Assembly (NCBI RefSeq): GCF_001866075.3
Contig: NZ_CP063356.1
Span: forward strand, 186,001-250,000
DNA from: Anaerobacillus isosaccharinicus
GTDB taxonomy: Bacteria > Bacillota > Bacilli > Bacillales > Anaerobacillaceae
DNA length: 64,000 nucleotides
Direction of reading: 5' to 3'
A program made the position numbers and the translations under genes. Of the stretch, positions 58 to 60,511 are shown one piece after another. The stretch's first letter is position 1. Every line of letters begins with the position of its first letter. The notes beneath the pieces were generated by a model. The model was given only the letters and a program-made list of their open reading frames with translations. It ran no database searches and was not told where the DNA came from.

Positions 58-156
58 AAATGTAGAATGTAAAATGTAGAATGAAAAATTTAAAAGTTAA
101 GCATCGAAGCTGAGCTGTCACTCATTCTACATTCTGAATTCTACATTCTACATTAT
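58..156. repeat. Heptad-arm inverted repeat, locus 1 (cymR/desulfurase gap)
   Basis: The left arm holds TGTAGAA, TGTAAAA, TGTAGAA and TGAAAAA in 7-bp register. The right arm holds TTCTACA, TTCTGAA, TTCTACA, TTCTACA. The core carries the variant GCATCGAAGC. The element fills most of the 123-bp gap between two genes likely to share a transcript. Confidence 0.85.
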
Positions 157-162
157 TATGGA

Positions 163-582
163 CTAAATATAAAACATATAGTATTCTTGGTTGCCTTTAT
201 CTTCATAATTGGCTAATTGGTCTAGTGTTGTGTTATCGAGAACATCTTTGACCGCGTCTCTAATTTTAATCCAAAGATCGCGTTTTGCTGGCTCTTCGTC
301 TTCCAATACTTCAACTGGACTAATTGGCCCTTCAAGAACTCTGATTATGTCACCTGCTGTAATTTTTTCTGCTTCTTTCGCTAGCATGTAACCACCGTAT
401 GCTCCGCGAACACTTTTCACTAAAAGGGCATTCCGAAGCGGTGCAATTAATTGCTCTAGATAATGTTCTGATAAATCATGATCTTTGGCGATCGATTTTA
501 ATGAAACTGGTCCCTCACCTTGCTTCTTTGCTAATGCCATCATGATTGTTAACCCGTAACGTCCCTTGGTCGATATCTTCAA
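163..582 (-). CDS. cymR: CymR, Rrf2-family repressor of cysteine metabolism
   Basis: This 139-residue protein is nearly collinear with B. subtilis CymR: it opens MKISTKGRYGLT, has the Rrf2 winged-helix segment (SEHYLEQLIAPLRNA, about 38-52), the GAYGGY wing (about 61-66), the ISPVEVLEDEEPAKR stretch, and ends YYMFYI. CymR represses cysteine and sulfur-uptake genes, with CysK as partner in Bacillus (family knowledge). It has no cysteine and no Rrf2 Fe-S ligands. The start is TTG (580-582), preceded by AGAGGG. That ribosome site and the first 68 bases lie inside the end of the upstream membrane gene, which suggests translational coupling. Confidence 0.95.
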   Translation of the reverse strand: MKISTKGRYGLTIMMALAKKQGEGPVSLKSIAKDHDLSEHYLEQLIAPLRNALLVKSVRGAYGGYMLAKEAEKITAGDIIRVLEGPISPVEVLEDEEPAKRDLWIKIRDAVKDVLDNTTLDQLANYEDKGNQEYYMFYI

Positions 583-1207
583 TTTTTATCCCTCTTTCTA
601 TCATAGCATCTACTAAACGTTGACATTGTGGCAACGTAAAACCTACGACATTACCAATCGTTAGACTAAATAGAATTGTTCCAATAAATACTGGTCCGCC
701 TAAAATCCAGCCAATCATTAACACAACAATTTCCATGACAAAACGAACATGCTGAACTTTCCAACCACTTCGTTCAGTAATGGCAATCATTAAGCTGTCT
801 CTAGGTCCAGCTCCACACTTTGGAGCTATATAAAGTCCAATACCATAACCACAAACTATGACTCCAACCAAAAGCATAACATATTGTCCTATTGTTGTGG
901 CAGGTGTATTAATAAATATACGAAAAATGTCAATAAATACGCCAACAAGCACCATATTTAGAAAGGCACCGAACTGTGGCCATTCTTTTGTTAATATACC
1001 AGTTATTGTTATTATACAAAAACCCACTATTATTGACCACGAACCAACAGTAAGTCCTACTTGTTTTGTCAGACCAATGTGGAGCACGTCCCAAGGGGCA
1101 ACACCCAGATTTGCTTCTATCATTAAGACAATCCCAAATGACATAACAAGCAATCCTGTTAAAAAAATTAGCCATCTTCTACCAAATCTTCTTTTGTCTA
1201 GTGCCAC
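515..1207 (-). CDS. YczE/YitT-type integral membrane protein
   Basis: The protein has about five hydrophobic segments, starting with WLIFLTGLLVMSFGIVLM, and the motif APWDVLHIGL typical of the YczE/YyaS/YitT group. Its transported substrate is unknown. I place the start at GTG 1205-1207 because AGGAGAGG lies about 11 bases upstream, giving 230 residues; a TTG at 1268-1270 would add 21 residues but has no ribosome site. It is not between rarA and cymR in B. subtilis, so it looks like a local insertion. Its 3' end overlaps cymR by 68 bases in another frame, and it is divergent from rarA. Confidence 0.75.
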   Translation of the reverse strand: MALDKRRFGRRWLIFLTGLLVMSFGIVLMIEANLGVAPWDVLHIGLTKQVGLTVGSWSIIVGFCIITITGILTKEWPQFGAFLNMVLVGVFIDIFRIFINTPATTIGQYVMLLVGVIVCGYGIGLYIAPKCGAGPRDSLMIAITERSGWKVQHVRFVMEIVVLMIGWILGGPVFIGTILFSLTIGNVVGFTLPQCQRLVDAMIERGIKIEDIDQGTLRVNNHDGISKEAR

Positions 1208-1384
1208 AGTTGTGTCATCCTCTCCTAGCCTTGCTACCAAACTGTTTATTTCATAATCAAATTCAATCAATTATATCACGATTTTCGAAATTAAAGGTAA
1301 GAATAAAAGCTGGTAGATAATCGTTGCATTTAGCTTTCTCATCAGTTATTCTGACTCAAAAGACTCTTAAGGAGTAGACAAACC

Positions 1385-2713
1385 GTGGACTTATTTAATT
1401 ACTCTTCCAAGCAAAATGAAAATATCAAAGGGCCTTTAGCAAGTCGGATGCGGCCTAGAACAATCGACGAAGTCATTGGCCAAGAAGAAATACTTGGCAA
1501 AGGAACGTTACTCAGACGAGCGATTGAGGCCGATCGCTTAACTCCAATGATCTTTTATGGACCACCTGGCACAGGAAAAACAACGATTGCCAAAGTCATT
1601 GCAAACTCAACTTCTGCTACTTTTGAACAGTTAAATGCTGTCACTGCTGGCATTGCAGATATAAGAAAAGTTACAGATGTCGCTAAAGAACGACTTTTAA
1701 TGTACGATAAAAAAACCGTTTTATTCATTGATGAGATCCACCGTTTTAATAAAGGTCAACAAGATGCTTTATTACCGAACGTTGAAGATGGAACCGTTAT
1801 TTTAATTGGTGCAACAACTGAGAGTCCGATGTTTGAGATAAACCAAGCTTTACTATCTCGGTCACGGCTTTTTCAATTAAGACCACATACAGATAAAGAC
1901 ATTAAAGAAATCTTATCAGTTGCAATTACCGATAAAGAACGAGGATATGGAAACTATCAAATTCATCTAAATGATGAAGCATTAGATCATATCGTGAATG
2001 TAGCCAATGGAGATGCTAGATCAGCATTAAATGCATTAGAGCTTGCTGTCCTTACTACAAATCCAAATTCTGAAGGTGTTATTTCGATTACACTACATAT
2101 TGCCGAGGAATCGATTCAAAAACGTATCGTCCGTTATGATAAGAAAGGCGATAACCATTATGATACAATTTCTGCTTTCATTAAAAGTATTCGTGGATCA
2201 GATCCAGATGCAACGTTATATTGGCTGGCCAAAATGCTTTATGCCGGAGAAGATCCAAAGTTTATCGCTAGAAGATTGTACGTTCATGCCGCAGAAGATA
2301 TTGGTTTAGCTGATCCAAACGCGCTGCTCATCGTTCAAGCAGCTACTTTCGCAGTAGATTTTGTCGGCATGCCTGAAGCTAGAATTCCTTTAGCAGAAGC
2401 TGCTCTTTATTTAGCAACAGCTCCAAAAAGCAATGCGGTAATCACTGGTATCGACAAAGCCCTTGATGCTGTAAAAAAAGAAAAAACAGGTGAAGTACCT
2501 GTCCACTTAAAGGATGCCCATTATAAAGGTGCCAAAGAATTAGGTCATGGCATTGGTTATAAATACCCTCATGATTATGAAAAAAATTATGTACCGCAAC
2601 AATACTTACCAGACCACATGATCGGTAAAAGCTTTTATAAACCTTCCGACAACGGCTACGAATTAACCGTAAACAAACGGTTACAGTACTTTGAGCAACG
2701 GAAGAAAATGTAG
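1385..2713 (+). CDS. rarA: RarA/MgsA, AAA+ ATPase of replication fork maintenance
   Basis: The 442 residues show an AAA+ clamp-loader-like ATPase: Walker A GPPGTGKTT (59-67), Walker B VLFIDEIH (112-119), the GATTESP sensor-1 segment, and a C-terminal RarA tetramerisation region with the LYLATAPKSNA signature. RarA acts with SSB at stalled forks (family knowledge). The start is GTG 1385, with AAGGAG at 1369-1374. The TAG stop (2711-2713) lies within the first heptads of the adjacent inverted repeat, so the last codon and stop may come from that element. B. subtilis also has this gene (yrvN) beside cymR. Confidence 0.95.
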   Translation: MDLFNYSSKQNENIKGPLASRMRPRTIDEVIGQEEILGKGTLLRRAIEADRLTPMIFYGPPGTGKTTIAKVIANSTSATFEQLNAVTAGIADIRKVTDVAKERLLMYDKKTVLFIDEIHRFNKGQQDALLPNVEDGTVILIGATTESPMFEINQALLSRSRLFQLRPHTDKDIKEILSVAITDKERGYGNYQIHLNDEALDHIVNVANGDARSALNALELAVLTTNPNSEGVISITLHIAEESIQKRIVRYDKKGDNHYDTISAFIKSIRGSDPDATLYWLAKMLYAGEDPKFIARRLYVHAAEDIGLADPNALLIVQAATFAVDFVGMPEARIPLAEAALYLATAPKSNAVITGIDKALDAVKKEKTGEVPVHLKDAHYKGAKELGHGIGYKYPHDYEKNYVPQQYLPDHMIGKSFYKPSDNGYELTVNKRLQYFEQRKKM

Positions 2714-2820
2714 TAGAATGTAGAATTAAAAATGTAGAATGTAGAATTTTTTTTTAAGTTTAGCTTCGAAGCAAAACTTTAAAACCATTTTACATTCTAC
2801 ATTTTACATTTATACATTCT
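2708..2820. repeat. Heptad-arm inverted repeat, locus 2 (rarA 3' end)
   Basis: The left arm has TGTAGAA-type units running from the rarA stop to about 2755. The core has GCTTCGAAGC at 2763-2772. The right arm has TTTTACA, TTCTACA, TTTTACA from 2788. The fold would lie directly after the stop codon. Confidence 0.85.
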
Positions 2821-3170
2821 TTAATAAATAAATTTGGTTCTTTCCCGTAAAATGTCCTTCCTCGCTGAATTTTCTGATCCCACATATTCATTAAAACCAC
2901 TTCTTTTTATGTTTCTACTATTTTATCCTAATGAATTTGATTTTTTTCATCTATTATATCTTTTCTTACTAAGTAGTTTGGGAGATGAGTGAATTTTACA
3001 GCAAAATATTTACATTCCACGCAATTTATCTATGTCTAAGTACAAAAATTACTCCAACTATGTATATTTCTAATTAAATCTGTCAAAAGTATTACTAATC
3101 AATTAACATTTTTTCACATTTTAATAATGGGTAGAAAAATAGAAATAATATTTAAGGAGATGAATGATTT
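2821..3170. other. Non-coding AT-rich gap before rsfA
   Basis: I see no open frame with a ribosome site, RNA motif or strong hairpin here. The stretch presumably holds the rsfA promoter. I could not assign a convincing sigma-factor site. The only clear signal is AAGGAGATGA at 3153-3162, the rsfA ribosome site. Confidence 0.5.
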
Positions 3171-3824
3171 ATGAAAATTAGACAAGATGCTTGGTCGTCA
3201 GAAGATGACTTATTACTCGCTGAAACTGTGTTACGCCATATAAGAGAAGGTGGAACTCAGTTAAAAGCATTTGATGAAGTAGGAGATGAGTTAAACCGTA
3301 CTTCTGCAGCATGTGGATTCCGCTGGAATGCAGTAGTTAGAAACCAATATAATGAAGCAATAAAACTAGCAAAAAAACAAAGAAAAGAAATGAAACGTAG
3401 ATTGTCATATAAACCTACGGCGACTGTTCATACTATGGAAACTTCAATGATGCCAACTATGACAGCTTCTGAAGTAAATGTTGTAGGAAATTACCAGCAA
3501 CAGACCCAGAGCCTTAATCTAAAAGACGTACTTAATTTTATTCAATCATTAGCTTCAAAAGAAGGTAGTTCATTAGAATTAAGGAAAGATAATGAAAAAC
3601 TAATGAAAGAAAACTTACAATTAATGACCGAGAAAAAAGAGTTAGAAGCTAAGCTTTCTAAACTAGAGAACGACCACCGAGTTGTTGAAGAAGATTATCA
3701 ATCATTAATTCAAATCATGAACCGCGCTCGTAGAATGGCTTTACTACAAGACGAGGAAGAACAAATACAAGCTCCTAAGTTCCGTATGGACAAGAATGGG
3801 AACTTAGAAAAAATTGCGAAATAA
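3171..3824 (+). CDS. rsfA: RsfA-type prespore transcription factor
   Basis: The N-terminal 60 residues form a Myb/SANT-like DNA-binding domain opening MKIRQDAWSSEDDLLLAET, with SAACGFRWNAVVR as recognition helix, as in RsfA and its Bacillus paralogues. A Q/S/T-rich linker (about 80-120) and a coiled coil (about 137-200) follow. RsfA tunes sigma-F dependent genes in the forespore (family knowledge). The ATG has AAGGAGATGA about 9 bases upstream. A hairpin terminator follows. Paralogues with the same domain exist, so the exact orthologue is less certain than the family. Confidence 0.85.
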   Translation: MKIRQDAWSSEDDLLLAETVLRHIREGGTQLKAFDEVGDELNRTSAACGFRWNAVVRNQYNEAIKLAKKQRKEMKRRLSYKPTATVHTMETSMMPTMTASEVNVVGNYQQQTQSLNLKDVLNFIQSLASKEGSSLELRKDNEKLMKENLQLMTEKKELEAKLSKLENDHRVVEEDYQSLIQIMNRARRMALLQDEEEQIQAPKFRMDKNGNLEKIAK

Positions 3825-3833
3825 GCACAAACA

Positions 3834-3866
3834 AAAGCACCGGAATGTTTCCGATGCTTTTTGTTT
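3834..3866. terminator. Bidirectional terminator between rsfA and lutC
   Basis: AGCACCGGAA and TTTCCGATGCT pair with a short loop. A T-run follows on the + strand and TTTTGTTTG on the - strand, so the hairpin can end both convergent genes. Confidence 0.85.
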
Positions 3867-3869
3867 GCT

Positions 3870-4589
3870 TTATTTATCTTCGACAATAATATAAGTTGCT
3901 TTAATCGGGCCATGTACACCAACAACTAAATTTAACTCAATATCGGCACTATTACTTGGACCAGAAATAAAGTTAATACATGACGGGATAGGACCAGCTT
4001 GAGCCATCTCATGAATTTGAGTAGCTGCCTGCGACATACGTGGTACGATTGTACTCTTTGGAATAATAGCAATATACGTTGCTGGAAGTAGACTAACAGA
4101 TCTACCTTTTCCTTTGTCACTAAATAAAACAACTGAACCTGATTCGGCTAACGTAATATCAGAGAATGTAATTCCAATGTTTGCTCTTTCAGCTATCGTG
4201 ATATTTTCTTCACCTATGCTAGGATCCCATACATGAAATTCGTTCTCTTCAACATTTGAAAACTCCTCAAATACCTCAGTTAAGTTATACTCTGCAAAAC
4301 GAGGATCATTCCAGTTGATAATTGATTTTCCGCCAAGCTCTGCGATCGCATCCTTTAAGACATTCTGCAATGTTTGCATTGTTGCTCTTTTAGCAACCGT
4401 GTGAATTCTTTGACACTGATCTTCTAGTTGAGCAGCTAATTCATCTTGGGACATACCTTTAAAAACTTCATATTGCGGGCGATGCTTCCACTCTGGTCGA
4501 ACAACACCTGAAGTTTTGCGCTCTCTTCCTAAAGAATTCGCAATTTTATTAAGAAATTTTTCTTTGTTATAAACTGTTCCTGCTGTCAT
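3870..4589 (-). CDS. lutC: LutC, lactate utilization LUD-domain protein
   Basis: This 239-residue LUD (DUF162) protein ends with the family pattern GPSNSADIELNLVVGVHGP (about 212-230). With LutA and LutB it forms the L-lactate to pyruvate oxidation system. I start it at ATG 4587-4589 because AAAGGAGG ends 8 bases upstream; an in-frame ATG at 4619 would overlap lutB by 29 bases. The chosen start lies one base after the lutB stop, as expected for a coupled operon. Its ribosome site sits in the last codons of lutB. Confidence 0.93.
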   Translation of the reverse strand: MTAGTVYNKEKFLNKIANSLGRERKTSGVVRPEWKHRPQYEVFKGMSQDELAAQLEDQCQRIHTVAKRATMQTLQNVLKDAIAELGGKSIINWNDPRFAEYNLTEVFEEFSNVEENEFHVWDPSIGEENITIAERANIGITFSDITLAESGSVVLFSDKGKGRSVSLLPATYIAIIPKSTIVPRMSQAATQIHEMAQAGPIPSCINFISGPSNSADIELNLVVGVHGPIKATYIIVEDK

Positions 4590-4590
4590 C

Positions 4591-6021
4591 CTAGTTTCCT
4601 CCTTTGTCACGGTTATCAAACCATGTTCTGAACTTATCTTTACCTTTACTTAGTTCAGGAAGGTCGCGAATATCTGTCCATAATTTTACTGGTCCAGGGC
4701 CATCTGTGATAAAACCATTTTTCGTAAAAGGACCCATAACAGAAGGTGCAGACTTTGTACCAACATTATATACAGTTGGTGATGAAGCAGCAAAGGCATA
4801 TCCTTTCATTGCTAACTTTTCAGCAAATGGTGCTTTACCTTCTTGCTCTACCATTACACGACGATGTTCGATTAAAAGATTATGCAAAGGAATTTTTACT
4901 GGACAAACTTCTGTACACGCTCCACATAAACTTGATGCGTAAGGTAATTCCTTCCACTCATCATAATCACCTAATAATGGATTTAATACCGCGCCAATCG
5001 GTCCAGGGTAAATCGAACCGTAAGAATGTCCTCCAATGTGACGATACACTGGACAAACGTTAATACAGGCAGCACAACGAATACATTGAAGGGCACTTTG
5101 GAATTGTGTCCCTAAAATCTTTGATCTACCATTATCGACAATGACTAAATGGAACTCTTCTGCACCATCTACATCGCCCTCTTGTTTCGTCCCTGTTAAA
5201 CCAGTTACATAACTAGTAAGCTTTTGGCCAACAGCACTTCTAGCTAACATACTAATAAGGATGTCTAATTCTTCCCAAGTTGGAACGATTCTTTCCATCC
5301 CCATAACGGCAATCTGCGTTTTCGGAATAGTTGTTGCAAGTCTTGCATTCCCTTCATTCGTAACAAGCGAGATAGAACCTGACTCTGCTACTGCAAAGTT
5401 ACAACCAGTAATACCAACTTCTGCAGTTAAGAAGTCTTTTCGTAACTCTTCACGAGCAAACAAAGCCATCTCTTTAGGATCACTTGTTTTCGTGTATCCT
5501 CTTTTATCAGCAAAAGTTTGGCGAATTTGCTCTTTATTTTTATGAAGGGCTGGAACAACAATATGTGACGGTGGATCATGATCATCTAATTGTAAAATCC
5601 ATTCTCCAAGATCACTTTCAATAACTTCACAACCCATAGATTCAAGGGCTTGATTCATACTAATTTCTTCAGTTACCATTGATTTAGATTTAATTATTTT
5701 CTTAGCGTCTTTACGAGATACGACACCTTTAATATATTCATTAGCTTCTTCAGCTGTTTCTGCAAAAAAGACGTTACCACCGTTTTTAATAACGTTCTCA
5801 GTCAATTGCTCTAAATAAAAATCTAAGTTTTCAAGAGTGTGTTGACGAATTTCTTCAGCAAGATTTCTCCAATCCTCCCAGTCACCTAAAGCACTTATTG
5901 AATCTAAACGGCGTCCTTGCATCCGTTCTTGAGCGCCTGCAACAGCTTTACGCATAAAGTCATCATTAATTCCCTTATCTACACGAGTAAAGAACTTGTC
6001 ATCACCTGTTTTAATCCCCAT
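4591..6021 (-). CDS. lutB: LutB, iron-sulfur subunit of L-lactate oxidation
   Basis: The 476 residues carry an N-terminal LUD domain and two 4Fe-4S clusters: C-x2-C-x2-C-x3-CP at about 313-324 ([12 protein letters not shown]) and C-x2-C-x3-CP at about 366-374 (CGACTEVCP). LutB homologues pass electrons during lactate oxidation to pyruvate (known for B. subtilis LutABC). The ATG (6019-6021) lies 12 bases after the lutA stop, with AGGCGGTG between. Length and cysteine pattern are complete. Confidence 0.95.
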
Positions 6022-6033
6022 TTACTTCACCGC

Positions 6034-6753: not shown

Positions 6754-6788
6754 ATTTTTTCCCCCTAAATTGTTAGATAGATGATCCG

Positions 6789-6801
6789 GTCATCAGATGA
6801 C
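6789..6801. promoter_or_regulatory. LutR-like operator upstream of lutA
   Basis: GTCATCAGATGAC is a perfect odd dyad about one base. The core TCATC-N-GATGA recurs twice upstream of the lactate permease. It fits a FadR-subfamily GntR regulator such as LutR; no regulator gene lies in the window. Confidence 0.7.
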
Positions 6802-6855
6802 TTGCTTACAGAATAAAAACGAATAGTTAAATCCGCCTCTATTTAAATTATAGTT

Positions 6856-6888: not shown

Positions 6889-6926
6889 AGCAGTGATATT
6901 TTGTACACTTAATAAATTTTAATCAA

Positions 6927-10149: not shown

Positions 10150-10338
10150 AATAATATAAAGTCCCGATATGCCGTATAATACATAGTTTTGAACCTGCCT
10201 AAGCAGGTGGGTGCTCTGTTTAACTCTTTGTACTTCCTCTCGTGAAGGCTTGCACGCCAAGCTAAAACTTCAAGCTCCCATATTAAAAATGTTGGCTCAA
10301 AACGTATAGTATTCTACAAACACCTCAGGACTTTTTTG
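10150..10338 (-). ncRNA. ssrS: 6S RNA (6S-1/BsrA-like)
   Basis: The reverse strand has the closing stem AAAGTCC near 10335 with GGACTTT near 10158, enclosing about 180 bases with the Firmicute 6S landmark AATATGGGAGC and a long imperfect helix. It is preceded by a promoter, TTGAAT (10370-10375), 17-base gap, TATTAT (10347-10352), and followed by an intrinsic terminator. In B. subtilis the 6S-1 gene lies between aspS and yrvM (tcdA). Here it is on the same side of tcdA, with hom inserted between it and aspS. 6S RNA binds housekeeping RNA polymerase in stationary phase. The exact ends are estimates. Confidence 0.85.
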
Positions 10339-11782: not shown

Positions 11783-11796
11783 TTCATGTGCCTTAA

Positions 11797-11934
11797 CTTA
11801 TCTGCCAGAGTACACTGTACTCTGCTGAAATTAGCACCTTGTTATCATAAGGAGAATTATGCATGAACACAATTCCCTTACTTAAACAGGTTGCCGGGCT
11901 TCATCGGGTCAGTCCCTCCGCCTCTCTTGATAAG
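11797..11934 (-). promoter_or_regulatory. SAM-I riboswitch (S-box)
   Basis: On the - strand the P1 strand CTTATC (11929-11934) is followed by AAGAGAGGCGGAGGGACTG and CCGATGAAGCCCGGCAACC, both diagnostic S-box elements. AAGGTGCTAATTTCAGCA follows and GATAAG (11797-11802) closes P1. SAM binding should favour the downstream terminator and shut off hom. A possible promoter, TTGAAG-17-TATTAG, lies further upstream, but it is weak. Confidence 0.95.
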
Positions 11935-12028
11935 TAGTATTTAATTTCGTAAAAAGAATACTTTTTCTAATAATACGATTATTTGGAAACTTCAAATTTC
12001 AAGTAAAAACAATATATCACGTTTGAAA

Positions 12029-12105
12029 TGAAATGTAAAATGTAAAATGGTTTGAAAGATTTGCTTCGCAGCTAAGCCCACAATAATTCTACAATATACA
12101 TTTAC
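12029..12105. repeat. Heptad-arm inverted repeat, locus 3 (aspS 3' end)
   Basis: The left arm is short (TGTAAAA twice). The core has the variant GCTTCGCAGC (12063-12072). The right arm has TTCTACA then ATATACA. The element abuts the aspS stop. Confidence 0.7.
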
Positions 12106-19051: not shown

Positions 19052-19346
19052 CAAAAAAACCCCCACCCCTGATATTAATATCAGGGACGAGAGTTTTGAT
19101 CCCGTGGTGCCACCCTAATTGAACGAATATTTTTAATATAAGTCCCACTTTAGACAGTTAACGCCTGTAGACGTTTTCCCCTATTAAAAAATCGCCGACA
19201 GCAACTTTCATTCAGGGAAAAACCTAAGGAGTGTTCATTCATTAAGCACATGGAGAAATGTTTTCAGCCTCGACATTCCCTCTCTTACCACGCAAGCCCT
19301 AACTACTCTGCTCCCTCAAAGGTTGTAAATATTTTGTTAATCATTG
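19052..19346 (-). promoter_or_regulatory. T-box riboswitch, original leader of hisS-aspS
   Basis: On the - strand AGGGTGGCACCACGGGATC (19098-19116) is the T-box motif, preceded by a stem I region with AGAGTAGTT (AGTA-type) and GAACACTCC (about 19228-19236). The terminator stem is a 20-bp palindrome (19067-19086) followed by seven T (19052-19058). The antiterminator bulge is TGGC, which pairs with tRNAs having discriminator G (tRNA-Asp, not the usual C73 of tRNA-His). The specifier codon is not certain. The next gene downstream was hisS, now cut off by two insertion sequences. Confidence 0.92.
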
Positions 19347-19662: not shown

Positions 19663-19755
19663 TAAAATGTAGAATTTAGAATGTGGAATGTAAAATTTTG
19701 AGACACTGCTTCGAAGCAATGCTTTCAATAATTCTACATTTTACATTTTACATTA
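19663..19755. repeat. Heptad-arm inverted repeat, locus 4 (dtd 3' end)
   Basis: Left units are TGTAGAA, TTTAGAA, TGTGGAA, TGTAAAA; right units are TTCTACA, TTTTACA, TTTTACA. The core has TGCTTCGAAGCA at 19707-19718. It lies between the dtd stop and the dtd terminator. Confidence 0.9.
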
Positions 19756-22403: not shown

Positions 22404-22477
22404 CTTACAGCCTTTAATTTATTTCTTTCTATTATCGTTATAATTTGTCTTGATGTAAAGAGTGAATGCCTATTTAA

Positions 22478-22576
22478 TGTGAAATGTAGAATGTAGAATG
22501 CAAAATGTTGAAAGTTTTTGCTTCGAAGCAATGTCTTCCAAAATTCTAAATTCTACATTTTACATTCTACATTCCT
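22478..22576. repeat. Heptad-arm inverted repeat, locus 5 (apt/relA gap)
   Basis: Left units are TGTGAAA, TGTAGAA, TGTAGAA, TGCAAAA, TGTTGAA; right units are TTCTAAA, TTCTACA, TTTTACA, TTCTACA. The core has TGCTTCGAAGCA at 22519-22530. Confidence 0.9.
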
Positions 22577-25956: not shown

Positions 25957-26048
25957 TAATGTAAAATGTAGAATTCAGAATGTAGAATGAATGTTTTTAG
26001 TCCCCCTTCGAAGCAGCACTTAAAACAATTTTACATTCTACATTTTTA
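25957..26048. repeat. Heptad-arm inverted repeat, locus 6
   Basis: Left units are TGTAAAA, TGTAGAA, TTCAGAA, TGTAGAA; right units are TTTTACA, TTCTACA. The core has CTTCGAAGC starting at 26006. It fills the gap between the cation-efflux gene and the LapA-like gene. Confidence 0.85.
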
Positions 26049-26049
26049 A

Positions 26050-26946
26050 TTATTCTGAAAATGGATTAATGTGAACTCTAACATCTTGGACGTGCTCTAT
26101 TTTTACTAATTGTTCCTTCACCTTTTTTCCAATGGCGTGACCGTGTTCCACTGTTATATAAGGATCAACAGCAATTTTTATATCAATAATTACATAATGG
26201 CCGTGTTCACGTGCTAGAAATTCATCAATCTTTAACACACCTGGAACAGCTAAGGCTGTCTTTTTCATCTCAGCTGTATCTTCTTCATGAAGTACGTGGT
26301 CCATGGCATTGTGAATTGATTGTTTTCCAAGCGCCCAAGCCATTTTTATAATGAGAATAGACACGAATAAGCCAGCCAATGGATCAGCATACACTAGCCA
26401 AGGTACGCCAATATACCCACCGATAATAGAGGCACCAATCCCCAGTAATGCTGCGATTGATGAAAACACATCTGATCGATGATGCCAAGCATCTGTAATT
26501 AATGCTTCACTACGATATTTTTTTCCCAAACGATATTTGTACCGAAACATTAATTCTTTAACAATAATTGAAAAAATAACTGCATAAATAGCAATAATTT
26601 TTGGAACCTGAATTGGTTCATTAAACGATTTAATTGCAGAAAGGGCAATCTCAAAACCAACAAAAAATAATAAAACTGCTACAATGATCGCAGCGATTGA
26701 CTCTGCTTTTCCATGTCCATAAGGATGATCTTCATCTGGGGGGAGTTTCGCAGCTCTAACTCCAATTAAAACTGCTACTGAGCCAACAACATCAGAAGCA
26801 GAATGAACTGCATCAGCAACTAAGGCTCTACTACCAGCTAGCCAACCTATGACACCTTTGATAATAGCTAATAAAATGTTTCCAATGATTCCTACCCAAG
26901 CCGCGAATTGAACTTGTTGGTACCGTTCATCTTTTTCCGCTTTCAT
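26050..26946 (-). CDS. Cation diffusion facilitator (metal efflux) protein
   Basis: The 298-residue CDF protein has six hydrophobic segments with the metal-site motifs ALVADAVHSASD (about 41-52) and ITDAWHHRSD (about 150-159), and a cytoplasmic C-terminal domain with HGHYVIIDIKI. The H/HD-type site resembles manganese/zinc exporters such as the B. subtilis MneP/MneS type; the metal is not proven. The HPYGHGKAES loop is typical. AGGTGATT precedes the ATG. The recJ-lapA region lies upstream of it on the transcript strand only to the right side of locus 6, so it may be separately transcribed. Confidence 0.88.
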   Translation of the reverse strand: MKAEKDERYQQVQFAAWVGIIGNILLAIIKGVIGWLAGSRALVADAVHSASDVVGSVAVLIGVRAAKLPPDEDHPYGHGKAESIAAIIVAVLLFFVGFEIALSAIKSFNEPIQVPKIIAIYAVIFSIIVKELMFRYKYRLGKKYRSEALITDAWHHRSDVFSSIAALLGIGASIIGGYIGVPWLVYADPLAGLFVSILIIKMAWALGKQSIHNAMDHVLHEEDTAEMKKTALAVPGVLKIDEFLAREHGHYVIIDIKIAVDPYITVEHGHAIGKKVKEQLVKIEHVQDVRVHINPFSE

Positions 26947-29386: not shown

Positions 29387-29469
29387 AAAAATGTAGAATT
29401 TAGAATGTAGAATGTAAAATTAATTAAAAATCACTCGCAGCTAAATTCTACATTTTACATTCTAAATTA
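29387..29469. repeat. Heptad-arm inverted repeat, locus 7 (upstream of secD)
   Basis: Left units are TGAAAAA, TGTAGAA, TTTAGAA, TGTAGAA, TGTAAAA; right units are TTCTACA, TTTTACA, TTCTAAA. The core is degenerate (CTCGCAGC). Confidence 0.85.
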
Positions 29470-30362: not shown

Positions 30363-30458
30363 ATGTAAATGTAGAATGTTGAAGGTAGAATGGTGTTTGA
30401 TAAGCTTCGAAGCAGAGCCTCAGTAATTATACATTTTTCATTCTAAACTTCTAAATTA
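30363..30458. repeat. Heptad-arm inverted repeat, locus 8 (upstream of spoVB)
   Basis: The left arm has TGTAGAA and TGTTGAA-type units. GCTTCGAAGC is intact at 30404-30413. The right arm is degenerate (TTATACA, TTTTTCA, TTCTAAA). The core is better preserved than the arms. Confidence 0.75.
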
Positions 30459-34621: not shown

Positions 34622-34705
34622 AAATCAATGTAGTATGTAAAATGCAGAATGTAGAATTAATCTAGCTAATGCAACGAAGAATCCTCACTGCAAAGTCACA
34701 TTCTA
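34622..34705. repeat. Heptad-arm inverted repeat, locus 9 (degenerate)
   Basis: The left arm has TGTAGTA, TGTAAAA, TGCAGAA, TGTAGAA. The right arm is nearly lost (TTCTATA) and the core lacks GCTTCGAAGC. It looks like a decaying copy between the ArsB-like terminator and the DUF421 gene. Confidence 0.6.
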
Positions 34706-36240: not shown

Positions 36241-36627
36241 TTGGAAAATAGAGGGATATTAACTTCTATGGTTTATGGTCTTGTCACAATACTTGTCATT
36301 ATTCTTTCAGTAAGCTTTATCATTTCTTTACTGCTTAGATTTACATCGTTAACGGAGTCATCTTTTAGTTGGATCATTATCGGGCTAACATTCATTGCTC
36401 TAATTGTTGGTGGCTTTGTCTCAGGAGGAAAATCAAAGCAAAAAGGCTGGATGGTAGGAGCAGGTACAGGACTTTTATATTCTTTACTCGTTTTTTTAGT
36501 TCAGTACTTAGGCTACAATGCTACATTCACCCTTGAGCAATACCTATTCCACGGTGGCTTTCTACTAGCAGCTATTATCGGTGGTATTATGGGCGTTAAC
36601 GTTGTCAGAAATTCGAGGATGGTTTAA
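36241..36627 (+). CDS. TIGR04086 family membrane protein (YrzE-like)
   Basis: The 128-residue protein has four membrane segments with short loops, including FVSGGKSKQKGWMVGAGTGLLY (about 59-80). B. subtilis YrzE lies in the same place beside yajC (yrbF). Function is unknown. The start is TTG 36241 with GAAAGGAGG upstream. It is convergent with yajC and shares its terminator. Confidence 0.8.
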   Translation: MENRGILTSMVYGLVTILVIILSVSFIISLLLRFTSLTESSFSWIIIGLTFIALIVGGFVSGGKSKQKGWMVGAGTGLLYSLLVFLVQYLGYNATFTLEQYLFHGGFLLAAIIGGIMGVNVVRNSRMV

Positions 36628-36726
36628 TAATGTAGAATGCAAAATGTAAAATGTAGAATTCGTTCAAGTATTGCTTCGAAGCTTAACTTCAATAATTTTA
36701 CATTCTACATTCTAAATTCTACATTG
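36628..36726. repeat. Heptad-arm inverted repeat, locus 10
   Basis: Left units are TGTAGAA, TGCAAAA, TGTAAAA, TGTAGAA; right units are TTTTACA, TTCTACA, TTCTAAA, TTCTACA, all in strict 7-bp register. GCTTCGAAGC is at 36673-36682. It lies between the YrzE-like stop and the shared terminator. Confidence 0.92.
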
Positions 36727-46656: not shown

Positions 46657-46671
46657 TTAAACAACCCCTTT

Positions 46672-46787
46672 TTAGAATTATGAATTGTGAATTGTGAATT
46701 ATGAAATTATAACCTTAGACCTACCTTTGAGTGCTCATGGTTTAGCCTTTCATTCATAATTAATAATTAATAATTCAAAATTAGATT
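46672..46787. repeat. Heptad-arm inverted repeat, variant family (nadC/nadA gap)
   Basis: The left arm reads TGAATTG, TGAATTG, TGAATTA, TGAAATT. The right arm reads TAATTAA, TAATTAA, TAATTCA after ATTCA. The 7-bp plan is the same as in the other loci, but the heptad is different and the core lacks GCTTCGAAGC. It lies inside the nadBCA operon. Confidence 0.75.
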
Positions 46788-52757: not shown

Positions 52758-52877
52758 ATAATAATGTAGAATGCAAAATTTAGAATGTAGAATTGTTGAA
52801 AAGTAACGCAAAGAAGAAAAAGCCTCTTTGAATCACTCACACCATTCTACATTTTTACTTCTACATACTACATTTAA
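52758..52877. repeat. Heptad-arm inverted repeat, locus 11 (obg/pheB gap)
   Basis: Left units are TGTAGAA, TGCAAAA, TTTAGAA, TGTAGAA; right units are TTCTACA then TTCTACA, TACTACA. The core is unrelated to GCTTCGAAGC. It sits just beyond the obg terminator. Confidence 0.8.
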
Positions 52878-54188: not shown

Positions 54189-54228
54189 CTTTTCACCTCA
54201 AAAATTCTTCAATCTCGTTCATTTAAGC

Positions 54229-55252: not shown

Positions 55253-55281
55253 TTGACAGTTTAATTTATCCATCATATACT
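55253..55281 (+). promoter_or_regulatory. Sigma-A promoter of the ABC importer
   Basis: TTGACA (55253-55258), a 17-base gap and TATACT (55276-55281) make a near-consensus promoter about 70 bases before the ATPase start. Confidence 0.85.
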
Positions 55282-55347
55282 AAGAGTACTTTAATCCCGA
55301 GTAAAAACATATGATTAATTAAATTAATGCAGTTTGGAGGTTTTAAC

Positions 55348-56196
55348 ATGACCCACGTAGTAATAAAAGACGTTGAAAAAACGTTTTATAATAAAGTTGA
55401 AAAGACTTCATTTACCGTATTCAATAACATTAACCTAACAATAAAAAAAGGGGAGTTTGTCTCTTTACTAGGTCCCTCTGGATGTGGAAAGTCTACTTTA
55501 CTAAATATTGTCGCAGGTCTAGATAAAGCTAGCAATGGCGTTGTCAAAATCGGTACTAAGGAAGTTAGTGGCCCAGGTTCTGATCGAGGTGTTGTTTTCC
55601 AAGAAGCAGCATTAATGCCATGGTTGACAGTTCTAGAAAATGTAACATTTGGACTAAAAAAACAAAAGATTAGCAAAGAAGCAGCTGAAAAAAAAGCGTT
55701 AGAATATTTAAAGCTTGTTCACCTAAGTAAGTTCGTTGGTTCATATCCACATGAACTTTCAGGCGGAATGAAGCAACGTGTTTCTATAGCAAGAGCACTT
55801 GCTATGGATCCCGAAATATTACTAATGGATGAACCTTTTGGAGCACTGGACGAGCAAACAAGATCAATGCTTCATAAAGAAGTTCAATTTATTTGGGAGC
55901 AAACAGGAAAAACAATTATTTTTGTAACTCATAACATTCGTGAATCAGTTCTTTTATCAGATCGAATTGTTTTAATGGGAACAAGACCTGGCGGAATTAT
56001 TCAAGAATTCCCAGTCAATCTACCAAGACCACGAAAACCTTCTTCACCAGAATTTATTAAACTCGAAGAAGACATTATGAGTTTATTAGCTGGTGAGATT
56101 GAGAAAGTAATGAAGGAGGAGATGGGTGATGACTACAACACTAAGAAGGCTAGCCTTCTTTACAGCTCTAATCGCAATATGGGAGAGCATATATAG
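55348..56196 (+). CDS. ABC importer ATPase, NitT/TauT/SsuB family
   Basis: The 282 residues contain Walker A GPSGCGKST, Q-loop FQEAALMPW, signature LSGGMKQR, Walker B LLMDEPFGALD and switch FVTHNI. The family energises uptake of sulfonates, nitrate or thiamine precursors. I choose ATG 55348, with TTGGAGG upstream; a start at 55327 lacks one. The last 22 residues overlap the permease gene by 68 bases in another frame, longer than usual, so the natural stop may have been lost. Confidence 0.9.
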   Translation: MTHVVIKDVEKTFYNKVEKTSFTVFNNINLTIKKGEFVSLLGPSGCGKSTLLNIVAGLDKASNGVVKIGTKEVSGPGSDRGVVFQEAALMPWLTVLENVTFGLKKQKISKEAAEKKALEYLKLVHLSKFVGSYPHELSGGMKQRVSIARALAMDPEILLMDEPFGALDEQTRSMLHKEVQFIWEQTGKTIIFVTHNIRESVLLSDRIVLMGTRPGGIIQEFPVNLPRPRKPSSPEFIKLEEDIMSLLAGEIEKVMKEEMGDDYNTKKASLLYSSNRNMGEHI

Positions 56197-56896
56197 GTTA
56201 AATGGAGAATTTAGCTTTTTTAGCACAAGATTTTTCCCGTCTCCAAGTGGAGCTATTCAACAATTATACAAAGGATTCTTTGAAACTGGCATTCTAAGCA
56301 ACGCCTTATTTACTAGTTTACAAAGAATTAGCTTAGGTTTCACCTTAGCCCTCTTAATTGGAGTTTCCCTAGGTATATTATTAGGACGCTCAAAACTTGC
56401 TGACGAAACACTTGGATCACTTGTTATTGCGCTTCAATCAATACCGAGTATTGTTTGGTTACCAATAGCGCTTATCTTCTTTGGACAAGGAAATACAGCG
56501 ATTATCTTTATTATTGTTTTAGGTGGAACATGGGCGATGACAATGAATGTTAGAATGGGGATTAAAAATGTTCAACCACTTCTAATTAGAGCAGCACTAA
56601 CAATGGGCTATAAAGGCTCTGAGCTTGTTTGGAAAGTGATGATCCCAGCCTCTATCCCAGCAGCATTAACAGGTGCTCGACTTGCTTGGGCATTCGGTTG
56701 GCGCGCCTTAATGGCAGGGGAACTTTTAGGCCGTGGCGGTCTTGGAAGAACACTACTTGATGCAAGAGACATGTTTAATATGGATTTAGTTATTGCAATT
56801 ATGGTCATTATTTCAGTGATTGGATTAATTGTTGAGTATTTAATTTTTGCTCCAATCGAAAGGAAAGTTATGACTCGTTGGGGATTGGCTAAGTAA
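56129..56896 (+). CDS. ABC importer permease, NitT/TauT/SsuC family
   Basis: The 255-residue protein has about six membrane segments and the EAA-loop region AALTMGYKGSELVWKVMIPASIPAALTGARL (about 156-186). The ATG at 56129 has AAGGAGG 9 bases upstream. It is encoded in the middle of the three-gene importer. Substrate is not evident from sequence. Confidence 0.9.
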   Translation: MTTTLRRLAFFTALIAIWESIYRLNGEFSFFSTRFFPSPSGAIQQLYKGFFETGILSNALFTSLQRISLGFTLALLIGVSLGILLGRSKLADETLGSLVIALQSIPSIVWLPIALIFFGQGNTAIIFIIVLGGTWAMTMNVRMGIKNVQPLLIRAALTMGYKGSELVWKVMIPASIPAALTGARLAWAFGWRALMAGELLGRGGLGRTLLDARDMFNMDLVIAIMVIISVIGLIVEYLIFAPIERKVMTRWGLAK

Positions 56897-56945
56897 ATGT
56901 AGAATCTAGAATGTAAATTGTAGAATGTAAAATGTAGAATTTTTA
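56893..56945. repeat. Heptad-arm repeat, locus 12 (one arm only)
   Basis: Six consecutive units follow the permease stop: TGTAGAA, TCTAGAA, TGTAAAT, TGTAGAA, TGTAAAA, TGTAGAA. No complementary right arm is seen before the binding-protein gene. The element lies inside the importer operon. Confidence 0.8.
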
Positions 56946-57005
56946 AATATTAGTAATTCATAGATGCAATTCAAAATAACGAAAAAAACATTGGGGGTAT
57001 AAAAG

Positions 57006-57998
57006 GTGAAAAGATTTTTTACAGTAACATTATTGGCATTATTATTAGGAGTACTAGCTGCTTGTGGGTCGTCTAAATCAGAATCTGTAGCTATCGGATT
57101 TTTTCCAAACTTAGATCATGCAGCCGCTATCGTTGGAAAAGAAAAAGGTTTCTTTGAAGAAGAAATGACAGGGAAAGAGCTTGATTTCACTTCTTTCCCA
57201 AATGGAAATGACTTTATTGAAGCATTAGATAACAATGCAATTCAATTAGGTTATGTTGGACCTGGGCCAGCAATTAACTACTTTTTAGCTGGTGGAGACA
57301 TTGTTGTATTAGGTGCTGCTGCGAACGGAGCAACATTAATTGTTGCTAGAGAAGGTTCTGGAATTGAAACGCTAGAAGACTTTGCTGGTAAGTCATTTTG
57401 TACTCCAGGAAATGGTTGCACGCATAACGTTCAGTTAGAAATTATGTTACAAGACATGGGCTTAACAACGACAAGACGTGGTGGAGTAGTAGACCATCAA
57501 CCACGTGTTAACCCGGCAAATATGATGATCATGTTTGAATCAGGTGAAATTGACGCTGCTGCGGCACCTGAACCTTGGGGAACTTATTTAGTTGAAGAAT
57601 TTGGCGCAAAAGTAATTACTGAGTGGAATGAAGTTTATTTAGGCGAAACATTAGCAAGTGTTGTTGTTGTAACAACTCCTAAATTTTTAAAAGAAAATCC
57701 AGAAGCAGTTGATCAGTTTTTAAAAGCTCATAAGCGTGCAGTTGATTACACGTATGAGAATACAGCGGACACATTAGTAACAATTAACGATCATCTTTTC
57801 AACATTTCACAACAAAGACTTCCTGAGTCTGTATTAGAAAATGCTTGGAAGCGTATGGTCGTTACAACTGAAACTCATGCAGATGCACTTCAAGCATGGG
57901 CAACTGCTTCATATGAATTAAATTTCATTGACAATGAACCAAACCTTGAAGGCTTTGTAGATACTTCAAGACTTGATAAAATTATTTCAGGAAACTAA
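57006..57998 (+). CDS. ABC importer substrate-binding lipoprotein, NitT/TauT/SsuA type
   Basis: The 330-residue protein has a lipoprotein signal with lipobox LAAC (about 17-20) and an NMT1/SsuA-type fold: GFFPNLDHAAAIVGKEKGFFEEE, then QLGYVGPGPAINYFLAGGD and a CTPGNGCTHNVQLE segment with two cysteines. The ligand is unknown; sulfonate, nitrate-like or pyrimidine compounds are typical for relatives. The start is GTG 57006. It is the third gene of the importer, after a heptad-repeat arm, and ends at a shared terminator. Confidence 0.88.
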   Translation: MKRFFTVTLLALLLGVLAACGSSKSESVAIGFFPNLDHAAAIVGKEKGFFEEEMTGKELDFTSFPNGNDFIEALDNNAIQLGYVGPGPAINYFLAGGDIVVLGAAANGATLIVAREGSGIETLEDFAGKSFCTPGNGCTHNVQLEIMLQDMGLTTTRRGGVVDHQPRVNPANMMIMFESGEIDAAAAPEPWGTYLVEEFGAKVITEWNEVYLGETLASVVVVTTPKFLKENPEAVDQFLKAHKRAVDYTYENTADTLVTINDHLFNISQQRLPESVLENAWKRMVVTTETHADALQAWATASYELNFIDNEPNLEGFVDTSRLDKIISGN

Positions 57999-58043
57999 AA
58001 AAAGAAATCCTTTTAGCCAATGCTAAAAGGATTTCTTTTTTTT
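57996..58043. terminator. Bidirectional terminator of the importer and hemY
   Basis: AAATCCTTTTAGC and GCTAAAAGGATTT pair around CAAT, with A7 and T8 flanks. It serves both convergent transcripts. Confidence 0.95.
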
Positions 58044-59448
58044 ACGCTAACTGTTGCTTCAACTTCGTTATCACAGCTTCACCTTGGTCAATACAATCTG
58101 GTACGCCAATTCCTTCAAATGAACCCCCTACCACATATACACCTGGTAATTGCTTTTGAAGCTGTTCTTTTAACTCATCAATTCGTTGTTTATGACCGAC
58201 AACATACTGTGGCATAGAGTCTTTCCAACGACGAATGATATGGAATTCAGGTTTTTCATCAATTTGCATTGTCTTGTTTAAATCCGTCAACACAGCGTTA
58301 ATGATTTCCTCATCAGACCAGTCTACGATTGCATCATTTCCAGCACGCCCTACATAGCAGCGTAATAACGCATAGCCTTCTGGAGTTGAATGATGCCATT
58401 TTTTATGCGTCCACGTACAAGCCGTGATATTGTAATCATTTTTCTTTGATACAACAAAGCCTGTGCCGTTAATATCTTTTTTAATTGCAGATTGTGGGAA
58501 AGCCATCGCAATCGTAGCAACTGATGTAGATGGAATGTCTGCTAACGATTGGACAAAAGAATAGTTTCTTAATGCTTCTTCTGTCACATGGTGTGGTGTT
58601 GCCATAACAACATAATCAAATGTTTCAACTACCCCATTTGAAAAAGTTAGTTCGTAAACCTCTCCCTTTTTCTCAAGGTTTACTAAGCCGACACCTTTAA
58701 CAACAGCTTCTTCATCTAAATATTTCTCAACACCGTCCACTAATGATTGGAGACCACGTTTAAATGACAAAAACATTCCTTTAGGTTTTGTCTTTGGGGC
58801 ACCTTTTGGCTTAGGTGGTGTCGCTTTTTTCATTCCAAGAATAAGACTACGATATTTTTGCTCTACCTGGTGGAATTGGGGAAATGTAGCCATTAAGCTT
58901 AATTTATCAATATCCCCTGCATAAATCCCTGAAAGTAGTGGCTCAATTAAATTATCAACAATCTCATTACCTAACCGTTTTCTAAAAAAACTTCCTAGCG
59001 ACATATCCACATCCGGATCAGTTGCTCTAGGTAGAAATAAATCACCAGCAGCTCTAAGTTTTCCTAATGGAGAAAAAAGATTTGTCGTAGCAAAAGGGAC
59101 CATTTGTGTTGGAATCCCCATAATCGCACCACCAGGAATTGGGTATAACTTGTCATTATTAAGAATAAACGCTCCGCCACTCCCGTTATAAACTAATTCT
59201 TTTTCTAGACCAACTTCTTTAGCAAGTCTTGTTGCACTTTGCTTTCTTGCTAGAAACGAATCAGGGCCCATTTCAATGACAAAGCCATTACGGTAATCTG
59301 TTGAAATTTTTCCACCAAGTTTTTGAGATTTCTCATATAGACGGTACTCACAGTCTAAGCCACTAGCTAATATTTCTTTTTGTAAATAGTAAGCAACTGT
59401 AATACCTGTTATTCCGCCACCGATAATAGCTACTCTTTTTTTACTCAT
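58042..59448 (-). CDS. hemY: Coproporphyrinogen/protoporphyrinogen oxidase HemY
   Basis: The 468-residue flavoprotein opens VAIIGGGITGITVAYYLQK (dinucleotide-binding loop) and has SFFRKRLGNEIVDNLIEPLLSGIYAGD and a C-terminal GGSFEGIGVPDCIDQGE. In Firmicutes this enzyme (also CgoX) oxidises coproporphyrinogen III. Its ATG overlaps the hemH stop (TAATG), so the genes are coupled. Confidence 0.95.
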   Translation of the reverse strand: MSKKRVAIIGGGITGITVAYYLQKEILASGLDCEYRLYEKSQKLGGKISTDYRNGFVIEMGPDSFLARKQSATRLAKEVGLEKELVYNGSGGAFILNNDKLYPIPGGAIMGIPTQMVPFATTNLFSPLGKLRAAGDLFLPRATDPDVDMSLGSFFRKRLGNEIVDNLIEPLLSGIYAGDIDKLSLMATFPQFHQVEQKYRSLILGMKKATPPKPKGAPKTKPKGMFLSFKRGLQSLVDGVEKYLDEEAVVKGVGLVNLEKKGEVYELTFSNGVVETFDYVVMATPHHVTEEALRNYSFVQSLADIPSTSVATIAMAFPQSAIKKDINGTGFVVSKKNDYNITACTWTHKKWHHSTPEGYALLRCYVGRAGNDAIVDWSDEEIINAVLTDLNKTMQIDEKPEFHIIRRWKDSMPQYVVGHKQRIDELKEQLQKQLPGVYVVGGSFEGIGVPDCIDQGEAVITKLKQQLA

Positions 59449-60395
59449 TAGCGATCACTTTCTTTCTCGGCTAACTTATTCATCACAACATCAGCTAAAC
59501 AATCAATGAATTTCGGCTTAGCATTTGGCATCTCTGGACGGAAATAAGCAACACCTAAATCATCAGTAACGACTTTGCACTCAATATCGTTATCGAACAG
59601 AACCTCAAGGTGGTCAGCAACAAAACCAACTGGGCAATATACAAATGCTTTATAACCTTTTTCATTATAGAGATCTCTCGTTAAATCTTGAACATCAGGT
59701 CCAATCCAAGGATCAGGCGTATTTCCTTCACTTTGCCAACCGATCGTATAGTTCACAATGCCAGCTTCTTTTGCAATTAAATCAGCCGTTTCTTTTAGTT
59801 GGTCTGGATATGGATCACCATTTTGTAAAATTTTCTCCGGCAAGCTATGAGCAGAGAAAATAACGACTGAATTATTAAATTGTTCTTCAGTCATACTAGC
59901 TACCGTCTTCTTAATTTCATCTGCCCAATATTGAATAAACTGAGGATGATCGTACCAGCTATCAATGCTATGTATTTTTGGGCCATTTATTTTCTCTGAA
60001 TGTTCCTTTGCACGACCGTTGTAGGATTTAACGCTAAATGTTGAATAATGAGGTGCTAATACGATACTTACTGCTTCTTCAATCCCATCTGATTTCATTT
60101 GATCAACGGCATCTTCGATAAATGGGTCGATATGCTTTAACCCTAAGTAAAGTTTAAATTGAACATCTTCATTTAATTCATTAAGCTTTTTTTCTAAGCC
60201 TTGCCCTTGTTCTTCTGTGATTTTCGCTAATGGCGAAATACCACCAATTGCTTCATAACGCTCTGTCAGTTCATTCAGCATCTCATCTGAAGGCTTTCTT
60301 CCACGTCTAATATGTGTGTAATACGGCTCAATTTCCTCGATACTTCGGGGAGTCCCATAAGCCATAACAAGTAATCCAATCGTTTTTTTAGACAT
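59448..60395 (-). CDS. hemH: Ferrochelatase HemH (coproporphyrin type)
   Basis: The 315-residue protein has the conserved histidine in [10 protein letters not shown] (about 186) and the acidic residues of [13 protein letters not shown] (about 257-269). Firmicute HemH (CpfC) inserts iron into coproporphyrin. It lies between hemE and hemY. The start ATG has AAAGGTG very close upstream. Confidence 0.95.
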
Positions 60396-60414
60396 TTCAT
60401 TGCACCTTTCTTTC

Positions 60415-60511
60415 TTAATGTATAATGTAGAATGTAAAATGTAGAATTACTTGAAAGAAATGCTTCGAAGCAAACCTCCACTCATTCTACATTCTACATT
60501 TTACATTTTTA
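60415..60511. repeat. Heptad-arm inverted repeat, locus 13 (hemE/hemH gap)
   Basis: Left units are TGTATAA, TGTAGAA, TGTAAAA, TGTAGAA; right units are TTCTACA, TTCTACA, TTTTACA. TGCTTCGAAGCA is at 60461-60472. It lies within the hemEHY operon. Confidence 0.92.

Follow-up and report, generated by a model that had tools for sequence, protein, structure and literature searches.

Heptad Palindromes of Anaerobacillus isosaccharinicus

How can a short palindromic repeat stand at the same gene ends in several related species and be spelled differently in each of them? This question is raised by a 64-kb stretch of the genome of Anaerobacillus isosaccharinicus (G000; 5,227,144 bp, single contig), positions 186001–250000 of contig C1, hereafter the window, in which intergenic inverted repeats built from tandem 7-bp units (heptads) recur. 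The repeated element is a near-palindrome of about 95 bp, consisting of about four AATGTAR units, a core around GCTTCGAAGC and about four YTACATT units; in the consensus, (AATGTAR)n and AATT are followed by a core containing TTnAAAG, GCTTCGAAGC and CTTnnAA, and then by the mirrored arm. New here are the abutment of the elements on gene ends, the occupation of common sites by other heptads in related genomes, spellings (dialects) that agree between both arms, and filled and empty sites in rRNA operons. Four related species, namely, G000, G005, G002 and A. arseniciselenatis (G003, locus L031), with one plan, many common sites and different 7-bp spellings, provide a natural record of genome-wide replacement.

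Structure and Copy Number

Tandem heptads in 7-bp register were found at all 13 places in the window where the original prediction, made from the sequence alone, had located them. The register scan revealed 22 arms in 64 kb, versus none in ten order-1 simulations and 0–1 in ten order-5 simulations; 16 runs of period 7 were detected, versus 0–1 for each other period (4–6 and 8–12). The plan of two arms, proposed for every locus, was found under strict scoring at nine of the 13 (59, 2717, 19666, 22476, 25958, 29390, 36629, 52763 and 60417), while four have one scorable arm, the right arm being degenerate at 12032 and 30363 and little or absent at 34627 and 56896. The spacer between scored arms in the window is 21–42 nt, a little shorter than the 30–50 bp predicted. 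All listed loci are real, but the list missed a 14th, paired element of dialect II (AATTATG/AATTGTG) at 46670–46785, found by the period-7 and generic arm scans.

Genome-wide, the strict pattern AATGTARAATGTARAATG has 136 + 127 = 263 matches versus 2 + 7 = 9 for the control read backwards, and the proposed genome-wide check of the register was thus passed. With a covariance model, at least 150 strand-wise matches at no fewer than 77 places were obtained, which is a floor (150 of 5286 candidates were scored). Reading of the sampled stretches of G000 yielded 94 pairs and 25 solo arms; because the sampling favoured loci matched by the pattern and the model, these figures do not give an exact copy number. 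The elements have terminal inverted repeats, lack coding capacity and occur as dispersed copies, as is typical for miniature inverted-repeat transposable elements (MITEs).

The commonest arm contains four heptads (left in 54 and right in 57 of the 94 pairs), and the spacer is mostly 26–46 nt. Pairwise, flank and fold tests were based on the 84 of these 94 pairs with a 20–60 nt spacer. Among them, the variant AATTCAG is most frequent three units away from the core and is core-adjacent in 0 of 84, in either arm. The four-unit norm and this position bias suggest inheritance rather than recent slippage for most heptad arrays. Pairwise identity among the 84 elements has a median of 79% and a maximum of 90% (3478 pairs).

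The arms of one element, compared within dialect I (AATGTAR), have a similarity of 0.777 versus 0.795 for permuted arms, so that the suggestion that one arm templates the other was not sustained; the lengths of left and right arms are uncorrelated (r = −0.02). The arms of one element are even slightly less alike than those of strangers (500 of 500 permutations equalled or exceeded the observed value).

Position Relative to Genes

Open reading frames (ORFs) of at least 80 aa were called mechanically. Of 85 elements of G000, 62 lie in tandem, 13 in convergent and 5 in divergent context, and 5 at locus edges. None of the 85 is inside an ORF, in agreement with the non-coding placement expected. 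The stop-codon test comprised 75 elements, the 5 edge and 5 divergent ones being left out; in 61 of these, the edge of the element is at most 10 nt from a stop codon or overlaps it. In 14 of the 61 stop-proximal elements the ORF ends at least 5 nt within the arm, the heptads themselves providing the stop. The preference persists where there is room: among the 23 elements in gaps that leave over 100 nt free, 15 are stop-proximal, versus 1.07 expected under uniform placement (maximum 5 in 500 simulations). Between tandem genes, the following start codon is often located 16–24 nt past the element. The elements are kept mostly flush with gene ends; the preference is not for stop codons alone, because a site behind 23S rRNA is also occupied.

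Dialects in Related Genomes

A tree of ten proteins gave ((G000,G005),G002), then ((G003,L032),G006), then G001 beside the outgroups, with supports of 76–100. G004 is the metagenome-assembled genome of L032, as a G004 locus falls inside L032. The nearest relatives of the SpoVB protein of the window are those of A. arseniciselenatis (88% identity) and A. alkalilacustris (86%).

The check for presence or absence in relatives, proposed with the original prediction, at first seemed to give absence: AATGTAR arms were found at 0 of 80 spoVB loci. The absence of elements was rejected, since that scan was blind to dialect and elements of other dialects were found, including those of A. arseniciselenatis. 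Presence/absence tests using one spelling overlook elements at orthologous sites. The regions of G005 orthologous to the window contain arrays of AGTTTTG, AGTTTAG and AGTTATG (20 period-7 runs versus 0–1 for other periods); those of G002 contain AATTATG, AATTGTG and AATGTAG (9 versus 0–2); those of G003 contain AGTTTTG and AATTGTG (8 versus 0–1). No period-7 excess was detected in G006 (5 runs, while periods 8 and 12 gave 4 apiece), and no period-7 runs were found in the orthologous regions of G001. By a generic scan, 10 pairs were found in the window of G000, and 14, 4, 3, 0 and 0 in the orthologous stretches of G005, G002, G003, G001 and G006, respectively; simulated sequence (three simulations for each genome) gave no pairs and 1–8 arms. 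G006 has a private dialect, AAAGTAG: AAAGTDG arrays number 56 in this genome and 0 in the six others (control 0). A scorable inverted pair was present at one of ten G006 loci read, and the AAAGTDG arrays seen there are mostly single-armed.

Both arms have a common dialect in 42 of 45 pairs (in 1000 permutations, 30.5 on average and 40 at most), and dialect tracks the genome more than the locus. Two dialects stand side by side in G000 at loci 609864 and 2915204. In G002 (L300:10103–10317), blocks of AATTATG and AATGTAG alternate in one register, forming a higher-order repeat. Similar mixed tandem blocks are located at L147:1238–1445 and 5202–5362, and their arrangement suggests recombination or slippage between dialects.

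Common Sites in Orthologous Gaps

Occupation was compared over 52 gene gaps, single arms being included unless only pairs are named. Of the 16 gaps occupied in G000, 14 are also occupied in G005, with 2 occupied only in G000 and 1 only in G005 (p 9.7e-10); for pairs alone, 8 gaps are common, 2 are G000-only and 4 G005-only (p 2.5e-5). G002 shares 9 of the 16 and has 1 of its own; G003, with partial coverage, shares 8 and has 2 of its own; G001 shares 4 and has 3 of its own (p 0.12); G006 shares 2 (p 0.09). Junctions at common sites lie at most 5 nt from the G000 position in 31 of 52 cases, with a median difference of 3.5 nt for the 46 comparable ones; the other 6 were not placeable or lay at least 40 nt away.

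The strongest case for vertical inheritance is the element at 22476, common to G000 and G002: both genomes have dialect I here with an identical unit variant, and the G002 copy ranks its G000 ortholog first of 84 elements. At the same site G005 has AGTKTAR and G003 has AGTTTTG. Scores of whole orthologous elements are weakly above permutations for G000–G005 (36/2000) and G000–G002 (74/2000).

Filled and Empty Sites in rRNA Operons

In the 23S–5S spacer of G005, the element is present in 12 of 13 copies and one copy is empty. G003 has it in 4 of 5 copies. Of the 5 copies of G002, 1 has it at this position, and another carries an AATTATG element closer to the 5S gene. The element was found in 0 of 11 copies in G000 and in 0 of 5 each in G001 and G006 (5 read of 9 matches each). 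Filled and empty spacers thus constitute presence/absence sites within one genome. The left arm of the spacer copies is clear; the right arm is degenerate in the copies of G005 and G002 and in those of AGTTTTG type in G003. One G003 copy lacks exactly 3 heptads (21 bp; L331 versus L313). The core of the G003 site scores 23–24 against the G005 copy L342 (the best of 121 non-rRNA cores scores 18) and 14–17 against the commoner G005 core (L308), and G002 versus G003 is barely above background (16 versus 14).

Recent copying in G005, considered for an identical 31-bp arm at two loci, was rejected, the loci being rRNA operon paralogs. A different insert, GTGCTCCTGCG..., recurs in rRNA spacers of G000 and G002 (L309, L315 and L322); in G002 it contains a GCTTCGAAGC palindrome.

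Target Duplications and Transposase Genes

No general target-site duplication is consistent across the 84 elements of G000. Short flanking repeats are in slight excess: in the first count, 12 were found versus a mean of 6.9 for k = 4 and 6 versus 2.7 for k = 5, both equal to the maximum of 50 shuffles; for k = 4, offsets 0–2 gave 12 of 84, with 7.1 expected on average (85/2000 shuffles), and offsets 0–4 gave 26 versus 14.9 (2/2000). With low-complexity repeats excluded, the values were 13 versus 7.2 (15/600), and a far-flank control showed no excess. This weak excess of 4–5 nt repeats could be the remnant of a short target duplication. Examples of such repeats are CCTAT at 208476 and CAATC at 180607 of G000.

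All 6 Y1_Tnp matches of G000 were inspected, and none is flanked on both sides by the heptad repeat. Among all Y1 loci inspected in the seven genomes, one (L283) has a single weak 4-unit arm. Plasmid searches gave no matches. G000 encodes a 255-aa Y1 transposase-like protein (L134:1102–1869, minus strand), which scores 69.6 bits against the model of REP-associated tyrosine transposases (RAYTs; cut-off 80), and Y1 proteins of similar length are present in G001, G002, G004, G005 and G006.

Origin of the Elements and Alternative Explanations

The elements may be old, non-autonomous palindromic mobile DNA resembling REPINs (paired repetitive extragenic palindromic sequences, REPs) or MITEs, the heptad arrays binding a protein and turning over in place as lineage dialects; this explanation, held tentatively, is the one we prefer. 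An element of about 95 bp, itself non-autonomous, would once have been spread by transposition, presumably with a transposase acting on it, and copies would have been retained mostly flush against gene ends. Each arm would be an array of 7-bp sites that a trans-acting protein recognises in double-stranded DNA. Old copies would persist at many common sites in several species, and in each lineage the heptad would be replaced in place by the typical dialect, usually in both arms, most likely by copies of the favoured dialect that overwrite or displace older ones at existing sites.

Several results weigh against this explanation. The search for a mobilising gene, which covered the Y1 and reverse transcriptase (RT) families, was negative: 16 of 40 Y1 and 10 of 32 RT matches were inspected, and none of these 26 loci is flanked by arms on both sides. 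No near-identical copies were found among the 84 elements of G000 (best of 3478 pairs 90%), which points to past rather than current mobility. The site-sharing counts rest partly on single arms, some of them near the noise level (1–8 arms in simulations, none paired). At 22476 the margin of the score is small (63 versus 59.5), and for other copies tested the ortholog is not the top match; for example, those of G005, with a different dialect, give it rank 65 of 84 at 25958 and 31 of 84 at 36629. A whole-element signal of orthology is absent for G000–G003, G005–G002, G005–G003 and G002–G003. The core tests took sites with a recognisable core in both genomes (11, 5 and 4 sites), and for the 11 sites of G000–G005 the cores are no more alike than unshared ones (the observed likeness was attained in 1104 of 2000 permutations). 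The heptad-binding protein itself is an inference.

The same protein appears in a second explanation, namely molecular drive, in which it replaces its own 7-bp sites in fixed palindromes, so that many gene-end loci switch spelling together in a lineage. Such a system would be distinct from REPINs, MITEs and uptake systems; it is conceivable, but we regard it as rather doubtful. A site read on double-stranded DNA is the simplest constraint that can be inferred for the heptads, since no signal of RNA pairing or of likeness between own arms and no clear enrichment of single motifs was detected.

A comparably doubtful explanation is independent insertion in each species, where dialects are separate mobile subfamilies targeting gene ends, permissive gaps are hit repeatedly and old copies are lost. 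It is consistent with the strong gene-end preference even in long gaps, with core similarity that does not follow orthology, and with loci of two dialects (12032 in G005 and G003; 609864 and 2915204 in G000). It accounts poorly for 14 of 16 common gaps with only 1 of 15 G005 gaps private among the 52 (4 of 12 for pairs only), for junctions often no more than 5 nt apart (31 of 52), and for the lack of near-identical copies in G000.

Drift of ancient insertions, locus by locus, through slippage and hairpin-templated repair, with no mobile or trans-acting driver, is unlikely. Slippage, which the original prediction had offered together with templated extension, is indeed visible in places, as in the 21-bp (3-unit) difference between rRNA copies of G003 and in the long or higher-order arrays of G002, and the available part of PMC4679880, citing Mrazek 2007, proposes heptad slippage for bacteria generally. 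Arm templating was not borne out, however, as the two arms of an element resemble each other no more than permuted arms do, their lengths do not correlate, and dialect follows genome more than locus.

Still less probable is selection for intercistronic or 3'-UTR RNA hairpins, like the stop-proximal REPs of Escherichia coli that affect translation of the upstream gene. The elements have stable folds (median z −6.4; 83 of 84 below −3, with 30 shuffles each) and are located at stop codons, and stalling of ribosomes by REPs of E. coli that lie no more than 15 nt from a stop codon is described in PMC12306157. In the 62 elements of tandem context, however, sense-strand mismatches comprise 93 of wobble versus 104 of A–C type (p 0.48). 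RNA pairing as the constraint is unsupported because there is no G–U excess over A–C in the sense strand, and RNA-hairpin function as the main constraint was therefore rejected. Single-armed copies (25 solo arms in the G000 sample) and copies behind 23S rRNA also argue against it.

It is very improbable that the heptads are a DNA uptake signal with dialects like that of Neisseriaceae. Dialects typical of species, inverted pairing and location at gene ends recall the DNA uptake sequences (DUS) described in PMC3630211, but ten tests on the window and two orthologous stretches showed no clear enrichment of single heptads outside the elements (AATGTAG in G000, 15 versus 12.6 expected; the largest excess, AGTTTAG in G005, 17 versus 11.4). 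That an RT or telomerase-like enzyme writes the heptads from an RNA template can hardly be maintained, as the exact 7-bp register and uniform dialects in its favour are opposed by RT genes in all seven genomes, including heptad-poor ones, by the 10 of 32 RT loci inspected, none beside arrays, and by the many point variants persisting among units.

Gene ends of bacteria commonly have short palindromic repeats, and the system described here offers a way to ask how whole populations of them change in concert. It can be tested here whether they are kept uniform by a trans-acting protein, by insertion into old copies or by gene conversion.

Elements of the Window

Paired elements of dialect I were located in the window at 59–154, 2707–2810, 19666–19754, 22476–22573, 25958–26051, 52763–52874 and 60417–60514. 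The gap of the first is also occupied by pairs in G005 (dialect IV) and G002 (dialect II). At 2707, the upstream ORF (1385–2713) ends on TAG within the first heptad. In the gap of the last, G006 has an arm of its own dialect, (CTTTCTA)n. The paired element at 36629–36725 stands directly behind the ORF end at 36627 and is the top match of model R1, which was partly built from this same element. Another pair, at 29390–29468, has a short degenerate core, and dialect I is present there in G005 too.

The remaining loci are less complete. The register scan revealed a degenerate element at 12032–12098, with a left arm of two scorable units and the core GCTTCGCAGC; the same gap in G005 and G003 contains AATGTA-type units followed by AGTTTTG units. 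The element at 30363–30450, with its degenerate right arm, lies in a divergent gap and is an exception to gene-end placement. Single arms on the plus strand are present at 34627–34654 (left arm of four units, right arm not scorable; register scan) and at 56896–56937 (six units, no right arm), the latter being matched by a single AATGTAR arm in G005.

Searched against Rfam with gathering scores as thresholds, the window showed a T-box leader (19080–19328), 6S RNA (10157–10334) and a SAM riboswitch (11795–11936), all on the minus strand. No other Rfam matches were obtained at these scores, and the heptad elements are unmatched. None of six heptad strings was found in the openly licensed literature searched either, and within the scope of these searches the elements correspond to no catalogued repeat. 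No description of a heptamer palindrome element of Anaerobacillus or Bacillaceae was found in that literature.

Distribution outside the Species

In 397 genomes of the order, the three-unit generic pattern gave 351–459 matches in five of the seven genomes of the genus, 110 in G047 and a weak 7 in G050; the reversed control is high in G003 (126) and G004 (193), so their counts are upper bounds. The four-unit pattern matches 32 of 398 genomes of the phylum, G000 included, with unrelated genomes rich in their own dialects (G697, G556, G508, G439 and G472), the reversed control being high in some of the 32 as well (for example, G496, G750 and G657). An inverted pair within 160 bp was present at one of 20 inspected phylum loci; since 19 lack it, heptad arrays are wider in distribution than the two-armed element. 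In G047, of another family of the order, three inverted pairs with a different core were found in 95 kb chosen around matches (L288–L293). Heptad arrays are thus patchily widespread, with the two-armed gene-end element so far found in the genus Anaerobacillus and perhaps in G047.

Comparison with Known Systems

The short tandemly repeated repetitive sequences (STRR) of cyanobacteria are 7-bp tandem repeats, intergenic and patchy in distribution. In the available text of PMC4679880, TAACTGA heptads are direct repeats located mostly just upstream of start codons; like the present units, they are intergenic 7-bp tandem repeats beside genes with a patchy distribution. In contrast to TAACTGA and STRR, the arms described here are inverted around a core (94 pairs versus 25 solo arms in G000), stand mostly behind genes and switch units.

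Bcr1 of Bacillus cereus is reportedly a MITE. Like MITEs, among which Bcr1 is named in the accessible part of PMC3733652, the heptad elements are short and non-coding, with terminal inverted repeats and with filled and empty sites. They differ in having only a weak 4–5 nt flanking-repeat excess with no consistent target duplication, in arms built of heptads, and in that no parent transposon was found in the Y1 and RT families searched.

REPs and REPINs are similar in being inverted, hairpin-forming extragenic pairs of about 100 bp with many copies per genome, as described in the portions consulted of PMC3116915, PMC12306157 and PMC3733652. For REPs of E. coli within 15 nt of a stop codon, PMC12306157 in its available text gives 446/4,072, and 260/496 from an earlier study cited there. 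According to the same sources, REPs are single units of 20–40 bp tagged with GTAG or CGTC, unlike the arms of tandem heptads found here; among the heptads, AATGTAG, AGTGTAG and AAAGTAG do contain GTAG, whereas AATTATG and AGTTTTG lack it. Among the inspected Y1 loci there is also no RAYT flanked by the repeat, and dialects differ at common sites. The elements are not REPs or REPINs, lacking two defining features of these, the tagged REP units and a flanked RAYT. They work like an element of REPIN or MITE type.

With the DUS of Neisseriaceae, the elements have in common species-typical variants and inverted pairs at gene ends; the difference is that DUS, in the sections available of PMC3630211, are thousands of single motifs, genes included, and heptads are not clearly enriched outside elements. 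In behaviour, REPINs and stop-proximal REPs come closest to the heptad palindromes, and in evolution the dialects of DUS do.

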